Shown here: one piece after another, positions 21,397-24,927 of the stretch
Numbering within the stretch: the stretch's first letter is position 1
How the letters are laid out: every line of letters starts with the position of its first letter
Assembly: GCA_019358835.1 (NCBI GenBank)
Contig: JAHHIH010000011.1
Coordinates: 1 to 64,000, forward strand
Direction of reading: 5' to 3'
DNA length: 64,000 nt
From: Tildeniella torsiva UHER 1998/13D
Lineage (GTDB): Bacteria > Cyanobacteriota > Cyanobacteriia > Phormidesmidales > Phormidesmidaceae
Notes under the pieces: model-generated
Databases searched by the model: none
The model's input: only the letters and a program-made list of their open reading frames with translations
What the model was told of the DNA's origin: nothing
Translations under genes and position numbers: made by a program

Positions 21397-22374
21397 ATGT
21401 CTCCCATTGCTGACCTACAAACCATTACCCTTGGCCCTAATGGCCCCACCGTACCGGCGCTGGGGGTGGGCACCTGGGCCTGGGGCGATTCCCTGTTCTG
21501 GGATTACGGCAAGGCCTATAGCGACAGCGACCTGCACGCTGCCTTTGACGCCTGTCTCGATGCCGGGCTAACCCTGTTTGACACCGCTGAGATCTACGGG
21601 CTAGGCCAGTCAGAGCGGCTACTGGGTCGGTTTATGCAGCAGCGGCCTCAGCAGGCCACCCAGAACGCCATAGTCGCCACTAAATACTTTCCGCTGCCCT
21701 GGCGCTGGTCTCAGCAGTCAGTCGCCGATGCATTGGCGGCTAGCCTCGATCGCCTCCAGGTAACCTCGGTAGCCCTCTACCAGGTGCACTGGCCGCTCGA
21801 TTTTTTGCTCAGCCAAAAAGACCTCATGCAGGCCCTGGCGGCAGAGGTCAAGCGGGGCCGCATTGGCGCGGTAGGGGTGAGCAACTACTCGGCCCGACAG
21901 ATGCGCCAGGCCCATGAGTATCTAGCTGAGCAGGGCGTTCCTCTGGCCGTCAACCAGGTGCAATATTCTTTACTAAACCGCAAAATTGAAACCAGTGGGG
22001 TAATGGAAACAGCGCGCGAACTGGGCGTTACCATCCTTGCCTACAGCCCGCTAGCCCAGGGGTTGCTGACGGGTAAATATACTCCCGAGGCCGACCTCAA
22101 ACCCGCTGGTGCCAGACGAATTAGTCCCCGCTTTAGCCAAGATGGCTTGACTAAGCTAAAGCCTGTTGTCGAGGCGCTTAAAGACATTGGGGAGAAGCAT
22201 GAGCGCACCCCCGCCCAGGTAGCTCTCAACTGGCTAGTGGCCCAAGGCAATGTGCTGCCCATCCCTGGCGCTAAGAATGCCCGTCAGGCATCGCAAAACG
22301 CGGGTGCCCTGGGGTGGCAACTGGCGGCGGATGAGCTACAGCGGCTCGATCAGCTCACCCAGGGCTATTGCTAG
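21397..22374 (+). CDS. Aldo/keto reductase
   Basis: This 325-residue NADPH-dependent oxidoreductase has the catalytic tetrad Asp/Tyr (FDTAEIYGLGQSE), Lys (VATKYFP) and His (QVHWPLD), and NADPH-binding segments near the C-terminus (PIPGAKNARQ). The family reduces aldehydes and ketones; the substrate is unknown. It is followed by a hairpin and the AT-rich riboswitch region. Confidence 0.9.
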   Translation: MSPIADLQTITLGPNGPTVPALGVGTWAWGDSLFWDYGKAYSDSDLHAAFDACLDAGLTLFDTAEIYGLGQSERLLGRFMQQRPQQATQNAIVATKYFPLPWRWSQQSVADALAASLDRLQVTSVALYQVHWPLDFLLSQKDLMQALAAEVKRGRIGAVGVSNYSARQMRQAHEYLAEQGVPLAVNQVQYSLLNRKIETSGVMETARELGVTILAYSPLAQGLLTGKYTPEADLKPAGARRISPRFSQDGLTKLKPVVEALKDIGEKHERTPAQVALNWLVAQGNVLPIPGAKNARQASQNAGALGWQLAADELQRLDQLTQGYC

Positions 22375-22382
22375 CATGGGAA

Positions 22383-22433
22383 GGAGGGTGCGATGGTCGA
22401 AAACCGGCCCAAAGGGCGATCGCAACACCCTCC
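22383..22433. terminator. Hairpin after aldo/keto reductase gene
   Basis: GGAGGGTG (22383-22390) pairs with CACCCTCC (22426-22433), extended by CGAT/ATCG and an inner GGCCC/GGGC pair with a small bulge. No T run follows, so termination is plausible but not certain. Bases 22437-22630 after it are AT-rich and non-coding. Confidence 0.45.
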
Positions 22434-22631
22434 TCTACTAGCCCATAAAAAACAAAAAGATATCCCTAACGGAAGATGTTTAAATGAAAAAATTGCCTTT
22501 CTAAAAAAGGTTTTATCCCAAAACAACGCTTTATATTTGAATCAGCAAATTCACCTAAAAAATAAAAATATTTTCTCTAATGCCCTATCTGTGCCAGAGG
22601 ATACAAATGGTCACATAACGCAAAGATTTCG

Positions 22632-22661
22632 TTGACGCTTTTCATTTTTCCCTTCTACAAT
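22632..22661 (+). promoter_or_regulatory. Promoter of the c-di-AMP riboswitch transcript
   Basis: TTGACG (22632-22637) and TACAAT (22656-22661) are spaced 18 bases apart, predicting transcription from about 22668, just where the conserved leader begins. It is the strongest promoter-like sequence in this stretch. Confidence 0.65.
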
Positions 22662-22667
22662 TTAGGT

Positions 22668-22835
22668 GTCGAACAAGTCAGCCTAATTTAGTCGTCCCAA
22701 CGGCTAGAGCGGGGGAACCAGTAAAGGGGCGTGTTTCCGAGTTCTCAACCCCCCATGGAGGGTAATCGGAAAAGGGTATCTCTCAACCCTAGCCCGTCAG
22801 CTAACCTCGTCGGCATTGAGGGAGACTGAACCATC
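22668..22835 (+). promoter_or_regulatory. Cyclic di-AMP riboswitch (ydaO-yuaA class)
   Basis: The leader has the hallmark elements of the ydaO/yuaA c-di-AMP riboswitch in order: GGGGGAACCA (22711-22720); a long arm TTTCCGA/TCGGAAA (22734-22740 with 22766-22772) enclosing GGAGGGTAAT; AGGGT/ACCCT (22773-22777 with 22786-22790); and AGCCCGTCAGCTAACCTCGT (22791-22810) followed by CGGC. The closing P1 stem is only partly clear to me. A hairpin at 22872-22891 and AGGAG at 22917-22921 before the ATG could form the expression platform. The ydaO class usually turns genes off when c-di-AMP is high. The first gene downstream is a universal-stress protein. No other riboswitch class fits. Confidence 0.85.
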
Positions 22836-22926
22836 ACCACTTCGCCCATGCGTTGGTTGTTTCAGTGTCCTAAGTCGTGTTAACACGGCTTGTTCGCTGT
22901 CCATGACTAGGCTCTAGGAGGCTCTC

Positions 22927-23502
22927 ATGCAGCTCAAATCGCGCACCCCTGCCCCATCAAGGCAGCCATTTTCGATTGGTTCTCAGGTTTCCCCCGAGGC
23001 GGCCATCAAGCCCATGATTATGCGGTTAGAGGCAGCCCTAGGTCGCCGCGATCTAGCTAAAAACATTGTTTTATTGCTGCGGCCAAAACCGCCAACTCCA
23101 GGCCCCAACGTAGACGAGCAAACCATCAATTTTGTCGTTGGCTACAGTGGCTCAGCCCACAGTCAGGCCGCCCTCGATTTAGCCCTATGTGTAGCCCACC
23201 AAACCCGTTTAGCTAAGCCTAATCCGGTGATGGTGCATGTGGTTTACGTGGTCGATAAAACTCGCCCTAAAACCATTGCCAATGCTGATCGCATTCTGTG
23301 GCAGGCCCGCTGCCTGGCCAGCGAGTGGCGCGGGTCGCTCAACGCTCACCTGCGAGTCGGCCAGGTGGCGACCGAACTCAGCCAGGTGGCCAAAGAGATT
23401 GGAGCTGAGGTGCTGCTGGTAGGTTGCCACACGGCCAAGCACCAGCTGGTACAGCAGCTAGATTCCCAAACTCCCTGCTCTGTCCTGGGGCTGCCCAAGT
23501 AA
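22927..23502 (+). CDS. UspA-like universal stress protein under c-di-AMP riboswitch
   Basis: This 191-residue protein has an N-terminal basic, disordered part (1-55) and a UspA-like fold: VGYSGSAHSQAALDLAL (about 75-91) and VLLVGCHTAKHQLVQQL near the end, where UspA proteins bind ATP or AMP. The glycine pattern of the nucleotide loop (G-x2-G-x9-G) is only partly kept. It is the first gene after the c-di-AMP riboswitch, so its expression probably answers to c-di-AMP level. A second UspA gene follows 245 bases later. Confidence 0.82.
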   Translation: MQLKSRTPAPSRQPFSIGSQVSPEAAIKPMIMRLEAALGRRDLAKNIVLLLRPKPPTPGPNVDEQTINFVVGYSGSAHSQAALDLALCVAHQTRLAKPNPVMVHVVYVVDKTRPKTIANADRILWQARCLASEWRGSLNAHLRVGQVATELSQVAKEIGAEVLLVGCHTAKHQLVQQLDSQTPCSVLGLPK

Positions 23503-23747
23503 ATCCCTAAGCTCAGCCCGCGTGGATTTGTACTAGATTCAGCTGATACTCCCTGTTCTGCCAGGCAGTCATGGCTCTGGCAGAACCTATGCGGCTGATC
23601 TAGAGTCGCAACCACTATTTATCGTTACTCGGCAGTGGACGCGCTGGCCCTTGGGCCGGTCTTTGACCTCGCGCCTGCCCCACTTGAAGCACCCCGATTC
23701 AACGTTCTGCACTGCGCTACTAGCGCCATTTTTTTAGGAGAAAACCC

Positions 23748-24260
23748 GTGAGCTATCACAACATTTTGGTGGCCCTCGATCGCACAGCGGCCTCCGATCG
23801 CGTCTTTGACTATGCCCTAGAGCTAGCCCAATCTTCCCAGGGGCAGCTGAAACTGGTTCACAGTCTCGCTATCAAGGCCTACGACAACTTAGGAAAGCTG
23901 ATTGATGCTGGAGTAGGCCTACAAAACTCCGCCAAGGTACAGCACGACGCGGAAGCGGCTCAACTACAGCAGGTTCAGGAAGCTCAAGAGTGGCTGGAAC
24001 AACTGCGCGCTGAGGCCCTAAAGCGCGATATCTCGACAGATTTTGTCTGTGAAATGTCTGACCCTGGCTCCTTTATCTGCCAACTTGCTGAGACCTGGGC
24101 CGCCGACGTGGTCGTGATGGGCAACAGCGGCAAAAAGGGGCTGAAAAAGCTCATCTTAGGCAGCGTAAGTGAGTACGTGGCCAAGCACGCCCCCTGCCCA
24201 ACCCTAGTGGTGCCCAATGACAGCGGCTCAGAGGTTGAACTCTTGTCTAAGGCCGGCTAA
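23748..24260 (+). CDS. UspA-like universal stress protein
   Basis: This 170-residue UspA has VALDRTAASDRVFDYAL at the N-terminus and VVMGNSGKKGLKKLILGSV near the C-terminus. The latter fits the ATP-binding consensus of nucleotide-binding Usp proteins (G-x-G-x9-G(S/T)) only approximately. AGGAG at 23735-23739 precedes the ATG. It may be read on the riboswitch transcript or from its own promoter in the 245-base gap. Usp proteins act in survival of stress and energy limitation. Confidence 0.88.
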   Translation: MSYHNILVALDRTAASDRVFDYALELAQSSQGQLKLVHSLAIKAYDNLGKLIDAGVGLQNSAKVQHDAEAAQLQQVQEAQEWLEQLRAEALKRDISTDFVCEMSDPGSFICQLAETWAADVVVMGNSGKKGLKKLILGSVSEYVAKHAPCPTLVVPNDSGSEVELLSKAG

Positions 24261-24273
24261 GTCTGTGGGGCAG

Positions 24274-24927
24274 CTACAGCACCAGGGGGTTACCCCGGTT
24301 GGTGAAGACAACGGCCTCAATTTTCCAGTTGGGCTGGTTGATCAGGGTCTCACGCAGGCTGCCCAGCAGTGCCTTTTGCTCGCACATCGACAGCGAGTTG
24401 AGCACCCGACGAGAGTTGCGAGCCACCCGCAAATCGATGGTGACGGTTTTGGTCTCGGGGTCAAAGCTGGTGCGATAGCCCGACAGAGTCAGCTCTGGAA
24501 TCCTCTGCTCCGCCAGAATCAGATCGACGGTGTTTTCCATGCTCTGCTGACGGGGCACCTGAATGGCTTCGGTTTGGTAGCCTTCGCAGCGATCGTCGAG
24601 GGTGTAGAGATCTACAGCCACCGGGTCGGCGGGCACCATTAGCCGCCGGGCACTGGCCTGCATCAGGCGGCTGGCACTGACCAGGGCATCGGCGGGGTTG
24701 GGAGCTAACTCTAGGGATTGGAACGGGGGGGCGATCGCCGCTTTCGCAGGATCCGCAGGTACCACCAAGTCCGTCGCCTTAGGCATCGGCTCCGCCTCAG
24801 TTCCAGGCTCAGAACAACTCCCCAGCAGCCCCAAAAGTGCCAGGGAAATCGCCCCCGAGATTATTCCTGCGGCCCCCGGCCAGGTATGGTAGGGACGGTA
24901 TTGAACGGGGTTGAGACAACGGGCCAT
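24274..24927 (-). CDS. GerMN-domain lipoprotein
   Basis: This 217-residue protein starts at ATG 24927 with a hydrophobic segment and a lipobox-like LLGSC near residue 34, followed by a Pro/Ala-rich linker. The C-terminal domain (about 95-217) resembles GerMN, the Spo/Ger-type domain: [26 protein letters not shown] and SLRETLI. In cyanobacteria such proteins are of unknown, probably envelope-related function. Its start codon overlaps the divergent pyrB start (see findings). It is convergent with the Usp gene. Confidence 0.75.

Follow-up and report, generated by a model that had tools for sequence, protein, structure and literature searches.

Upstream of usp1, a gene for a divergent universal stress protein (Usp), the DNA analysed here (the window, a 64,000-nucleotide stretch of the Tildeniella torsiva genome) carries what we take, at a probability of roughly 0.6, to be a c-di-AMP riboswitch that acts through three RNA helices, P0, PY and PZ, to control usp1 translationally and in the OFF direction, within a conserved regulon in which Usp1 is associated with transporters and would act on them. 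The following gene, usp2, is probably under the same riboswitch. Such a regulon of permease, ABC transporter, antiporter and Usp genes would provide concrete targets for a c-di-AMP route to salt, nutrient and possibly carbon transport, and a translational c-di-AMP switch could be probed directly by mutating the proposed P0 helix.

The first-pass annotation had read a ydaO/yuaA leader in this region and proposed a check against RF00379. The motifs that it named are present in the sequence, and the Rfam model matches positions 22670–22829 of the forward strand at 67 bits, against a gathering score of 38 (E 2.4e-13, model positions 1–134); this is the sole match to any Rfam family at gathering strength within the 64 kb, and the genome has two further RF00379 matches. 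The same aptamer scores 142.7 bits with our own covariance model, R1, whose training set included the window sequence. A second, decayed riboswitch in the window was rejected, as R1 gives, besides the known element, only a 13.7-bit antisense match at 22074–22167. The genome also encodes a diadenylate cyclase domain (PF02457, 130 bits), and the window's RNA would be expected to bind c-di-AMP.

The promoter that had been placed right before the aptamer, TTGACG-18-TACAAT at 22632–22661 on the forward strand, was likewise borne out as a prediction: it is found by pattern scan, and of the 22 leaders in the order that have a riboswitch before usp1, 20 (including the window's) carry TTGACN-18-TANNNT at the same position. 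By pattern, two promoter-like sites were found against a mean of 1.1 in shuffled sequences, that is, no more than chance. Transcription from this predicted promoter would be expected to start near 22668. The element CATAACGCAA lies at 22614–22623, upstream of the -35 box, and is possibly an activator site; the corresponding pattern, (C/T)ATA(A/T)(C/T)G(C/T)AA, stands upstream of 13 of the 22 usp1-class riboswitches of the order, at an identical distance in 10 of those 13 (window included), and of 0 of 45 other classified riboswitches.

In the predicted fold of the leader, the strand at the predicted mRNA 5′ end (CGAACAAGUC, 22670–22679, forward strand) pairs with a distant strand (GGCUUGUUCG, 22887–22896, forward strand) to form P0, both assignments resting on the fold and on strand conservation. 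Between them and on the same strand, the aptamer is followed immediately by a hairpin, PX (GGAGACUGAA with UUCAGUGUCC, 22821–22870), and then by hairpin PY (AAGUCGUG-UUAA-CACGGCUU, 22872–22891), which competes with P0 because both need 22887–22891. A further predicted hairpin on the forward strand, PZ (22897–22932), adjoins P0 and holds the AUG in its stem, together with part of the Shine-Dalgarno sequence (22916–22921). Across 32 leaders the proportion of paired cells is 97.8% in P0, 97.6% in PX, 98.8% in PY and 90.9% in PZ, percentages that are flattered because these leaders were selected from 36 for presence of the 3′ motif (three without it were skipped and one duplicate was removed). Two-sided changes are few, affecting 2 of 10 P0 pairs and 1 of 8 PY pairs. 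Another RNA family in the post-aptamer module was considered and discarded, the two matches having E 4.3 and lying far below cut-offs.

As far as sequence comparison can tell, a stronger sign for P0 than these pair counts is that both of its strands change together between clades. Within the order, a GAACAAG-like flank and a CTTGTTCG-like partner occur together in 21 of 22 usp1 leaders and 12 of 13 Nrt leaders, and in none of 23 NhaD leaders; in other genera it is a GTGGG flank that accompanies a CCCACC partner, in 18 of 26 usp1 leaders, 0 of 38 Nrt leaders and 0 of 13 NhaD leaders. These counts keep near-identical leaders of one species from two collections and omit leaders that lack the anchor motifs (2, 3, 3, 0, 0 and 4 by group). 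Two leaders have the strands of the other group: a usp1 leader within the order shows GTGGG, and a single Nrt leader from another genus shows the order's strands. Outside the order, the CCCACC strand of usp1 leaders continues into an anti-Shine-Dalgarno hairpin, whose pattern CCTCTC..GAGAGG is found in 20 of the 26.

Partner-swap energies support P0 in the order and hardly do so in other genera. Duplexes of the order reach -13.5 and -13.8 with their own partners and about -7 with partners from outside or from NhaD-class groups, and those of other genera, from which seven leaders were dropped in this comparison, reach -10.5 with their own and -8.3 to -10.5 kcal/mol when swapped; in the latter, own and same-group swapped duplexes have the same energy (-10.5), and duplexes with NhaD regions are weaker by only 1 kcal/mol. 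When flanks were shuffled, the native flank ranked within the best 5 of 100 for most leaders of the order that precede usp1 (18 of 22) or Nrt genes (11 of 13). Of 27 NhaD leaders supplied, 25 were tested and 2 reached this rank; of 53 named leaders from L144 on, 44 were tested and 4 reached it, one of the four, L166, being of the order's type. The results outside the usp1 and Nrt leaders of the order rule out P0 as a general trait of cyanobacterial c-di-AMP leaders. Elsewhere, in L155, the two strands are complementary and represent a third sequence type (-18.7 kcal/mol), and many NhaD-like leaders of the order, such as L002 downstream of 1501–1654, show by eye a different post-aptamer hairpin (GGGAGAGAAC..GTTCTCC). 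Post-aptamer platforms thus seem to differ by target class.

In the mechanism that we propose, transcription would begin at the 5′ strand of P0, a long-range helix closing the aptamer beside PZ. With c-di-AMP bound, the aptamer and P0 would be stable and stacked on PZ, and translation would be low; with no ligand, PY would capture the 3′ strand of P0 and the initiation region would open. Usp1 might then act on transporters as TeaD does on TeaABC, an action that we propose by analogy. We favour OFF over ON as the direction, given that in both clades P0 lies directly against the start-site hairpin; the c-di-AMP switches characterised so far are generally OFF switches. It is rather unlikely, if far from negligible, that the same regulon is instead switched ON, with ligand-bound P0 taking up a strand that otherwise hides the Shine-Dalgarno sequence, such that c-di-AMP raises Usp1. 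In L172, L181 and L191 the 5′ flank GAGTGGG(T) does pair with (A)CCCACCTC, reaching into the anti-Shine-Dalgarno strand CCTCTC; however, the extra GAG is not conserved (the flanks are ACGTGGGT in L193 and TCTGTGGGT in L217, L234 and L241), and the shared part of P0 adjoins the anti-Shine-Dalgarno hairpin with no overlap. Energy modelling separates the P0 and PY states by a mean of 0.7 kcal/mol, with P0 lower in 12 of 32 leaders, and gives a mean start-codon openness of 0.17 with P0 and 0.16 with PY; because losing P0 does not open the start site in the model, it favours neither ON nor OFF.

The position of P0 and PZ at the start site suggests that control is exerted at the level of translation. 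In Firmicutes, such riboswitches usually work by terminating transcription, and an intrinsic terminator in the leader is typical of the Firmicute-type RF00379 platform. The window's leader resembles RF00379 in its full-length aptamer match and differs from it in the terminator-like site, which a simple pattern scan of 22380–24300 did not find in the leader, in the proposed P0 from the mRNA 5′ end, in the start-site hairpin and in the Usp gene downstream. Control on transcription, through termination or RNA stability and with P0, PY and PZ incidental, is improbable: the leader lacks a terminator-like site, and the P0 strands co-change between clades and adjoin the initiation hairpin. In its favour are the Firmicute precedent and the different hairpin that follows the aptamer in NhaD leaders of the order. 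The sole terminator-like site in the scan, at 23714 near usp2, was set aside as a second control point (hairpin 23714–23726). Among 14 usp1-usp2 gaps of the order, counted for T runs only, five have a run of at least 5 T, and three, the window's included, have it within 20 nt of usp2.

We next turn to the genes behind the riboswitch. In a survey of 63 genomes of the order, the window's genome included, the riboswitch is present in 32, with 70 matches in all. Every usp1 match with E ≤ 1e-40 in these 63 genomes (23 of 23) lies behind a riboswitch and within 300 nt of it, 22 of them at no more than 175 nt and the remaining one, whose reading frames are broken, at 295 nt; weaker matches, with E above 1e-40, were left uncounted: a fragment at 6e-15 and five rows, at 2e-5 to 8e-4, that represent other Usp genes or frames. 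The first recognised gene was assigned for 67 of the 70 riboswitches and is NhaD-like in 27, usp1 in 22, Nrt in 13, usp3 in three, and CPA2 and usp2 in one each, with G037:C158, G038:C285 and G038:C10 left unclassified (G038:C285 does count among the 23). A usp2 reading frame was called behind usp1 in 14 of the 22 riboswitch-usp1 loci. In relatives such as G032 and G043, a further riboswitch stands behind usp1-usp2 and precedes usp3 and the gene for a CPA2 antiporter that combines Na_H_Exchanger, Usp and PTS_EIIA_2 domains. At L079 (G030:C96) usp1 is split into several frames behind a riboswitch match, as a pseudogene or through an assembly error. At L102, L084 and L066, c-di-AMP riboswitches are densely clustered, two or three of them lying some 2 to 7 kb from one another with usp1-usp2, usp3-CPA2 and Nrt genes.

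The association extends beyond the order. A riboswitch lies upstream of 63 of 78 named usp1 homologs, as counted with our own model (an Rfam check in six loci passed 9 of 11 matches at the gathering score). The distance to usp1 is within 250 nt at 33 of these loci, 250–1000 nt at 9 and greater at 21, where the genes in between are Nrt genes, of an Nrt/Cmp-type ABC transporter, in 20 cases and an NhaD-like gene in one; for the other 15 homologs no riboswitch was found in the upstream sequence at hand, which spans at least 4.5 kb in seven and less in eight. At 36 of the 78 loci the gene next upstream of usp1 matches NrtD, in four cases partially or in split form. A class-wide search returned a riboswitch match in 195 of 388 genomes. 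At 60 loci outside the order, picked from the best-scoring listed matches rather than at random and with three genomes taken twice, the first recognised family is Nrt (NrtB/NrtA) in 20, NhaD-like in 19, Usp1 in 15, CPA2 in one and another in five, and usp1 occurs somewhere in the downstream run at 24. Back-to-back pairs of c-di-AMP riboswitches on opposite strands were seen at L153:2587-3197 and L172:5161-5783.

These counts bear on two further suggestions of the first-pass annotation, which had regarded the Usp genes as an exception to the usual transport theme and as the mark of a stress link particular to this lineage. Neither survives the comparison: this Usp comes first at 15 of 60 loci outside the order and stands in the downstream run at 24 of 60, and in many relatives it lies behind the Nrt/Cmp-type ABC transporter or beside ion antiporters. 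The Usp recurs in the transport regulon across the class and does not point to a stress link peculiar to this lineage; the label "stress" derives from the family name alone. In the window's genome itself no transporter gene adjoins usp1; pyrB occupies the place downstream of usp1-usp2 where relatives have riboswitch-usp3-CPA2, and a close copy of the CPA2 antiporter gene was not found, the best matches in that genome having 35–37% identity. Its other two riboswitches precede, respectively, a CitM/ArsB/NhaD-like permease, which we take to be of the slr0753 type, and NrtB-, NrtA- and NrtD-like genes. This suggests a conserved cyanobacterial regulon comprising the CitM/ArsB/NhaD-like permease, the Nrt/Cmp-type ABC transporter, Usp proteins and, in relatives, the CPA2 antiporter, with usp1 most likely encoding a transporter-associated Usp that shares its sensor with conserved genes for salt and nutrient transport. 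As separate observations, a CPA2 paralog of the window's genome (L123) has an in-frame TAG inside the match, and the NrtA-like binding protein of the riboswitch-linked operon at L063:4807-6210 (reverse strand) scores higher against NrtC/CmpC than against NrtA or the bicarbonate-binding protein.

It is unlikely, in our judgement, that c-di-AMP directly controls a programme for stress or day-night survival through the Usp proteins, as originally proposed: the recurrent neighbours of usp1 in relatives are transporters, and Usp is the name of a fold. What speaks for a day-night role is that, according to an excerpt of PMC5897029, a Synechococcus elongatus mutant lacking the c-di-AMP cyclase does not survive the night phase of day-night cycles, and that a daytime peak of c-di-AMP is given in an excerpt of PMC13249358; because c-di-AMP peaks by day, the idea is kept as a hypothesis. 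It could also be joined to the regulon proposed above, in that a riboswitch of a new build, working translationally by strand exchange between the mRNA 5′ end and the start-site hairpin, would set the level of a Usp that gates the Nrt/Cmp-type ABC transporter and cation antiporters, and daytime c-di-AMP would thus couple nutrient and salt transport to the day-night cycle. We regard this extended scheme as speculative and, on balance, doubtful.

Several of these elements have precedents. The riboswitch class, its presence in cyanobacteria and the target slr0753 are already known, the last from Synechocystis, where it is a putative chloride efflux transporter with a c-di-AMP riboswitch (excerpt of PMC10117731). 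The likeness is that of a cyanobacterial c-di-AMP riboswitch before a membrane transporter, as before the permease of the window's genome, and the difference is that in the window the genes behind the riboswitch encode Usp proteins. Genes for the synthesis and transport of osmoprotectants are also cited as c-di-AMP riboswitch targets (Nelson 2013, as quoted in excerpts of PMC5986932 and PMC4284465). In the part of the literature covered by our search, no description of a c-di-AMP/ydaO riboswitch paired with a universal stress protein was found, and earlier target lists may contain one. Such lists are said to stand in Nelson 2013 and Block 2010, so the riboswitch-usp pair may already be there.

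Both reading frames that the first-pass annotation had called Usp match PF00582, to different degrees. The product of usp1 (22927–23502, forward strand, 191 aa) is a divergent Usp-fold protein with an N-terminal extension of about 65 aa and a weak match (29.7 bits, cut-off 24); usp2, which starts 245 nt after usp1 (23748–24260, forward strand, 170 aa), encodes an ordinary Usp with a strong one (110.6 bits), and an ATP-type motif can be read in its sequence. Judged by its dN/dS of 0.04–0.10 against nine relatives, usp1 is under purifying selection. It has no match in NCBIfam at E 0.001, and its sequence profiles gave nothing significant against the PDB (best E 0.038 and 0.34). A first AlphaFold model, built from 22 rows, was poor (pLDDT 53.7) and was set aside; the model retained (pLDDT 82) predicts a Usp fold, and the best-ranked structures, by Z and in Foldseek, are Usp chains.

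One structure of relevance to a role in transport is that of TeaD (3hgm) from Halomonas elongata, a stand-alone Usp that is linked to the ectoine transporter TeaABC and reportedly has a role in regulating it. It aligns with usp1 at Z 15.4 (117 aligned, rmsd 2.5, 18% identity), tied for first place by Z with a dAMP-bound Archaeoglobus Usp, and ranks third in Foldseek. The fold does not single out TeaD, because other Usp structures score within 1 Z (3qtb at 15.4, 4wny at 15.0) and Foldseek puts 4wny first. Unlike TeaD, usp1 has no ATP-type motif, and its putative partner would be an ABC transporter or antiporter rather than a TRAP system. Among the glycines of the ATP motif GX2GX9G(S/T), only the first (G166) was seen across 22 aligned homologs.

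That Usp1 is itself a c-di-AMP receptor, with c-di-AMP acting on both its synthesis and its activity, appears quite unlikely. The Usp domain of KdpD with c-di-AMP (7ji4) shares the fold with usp1 (Z 12.1, 113 aligned, rmsd 2.7) and part of the binding motif, and usp1 differs in being stand-alone, with an incomplete motif and no kinase. The KdpD motif, given as (A/G/C)XSXSX2N(Y/F) in an excerpt of PMC8214093, is matched in its first part by G72-x-S74-x-S76, and the lack of an ATP-type motif in usp1 would also fit such a receptor; however, usp1 reads GYSGSAHSQ, so that N(Y/F) is replaced by S79-Q80 and the full motif is absent. S79 is invariant in the alignments, and S74, the first serine, varies across the wider family, represented by an alignment (A5) with 50 rows. 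The 78 named loci supply 39 of these rows; L160 and L174 (whose frame from the match start stops early) were omitted, as were others for redundancy. In the structure list 7ji4 is preceded by 22 entries, of which 14 exceed its Z by at least 1.
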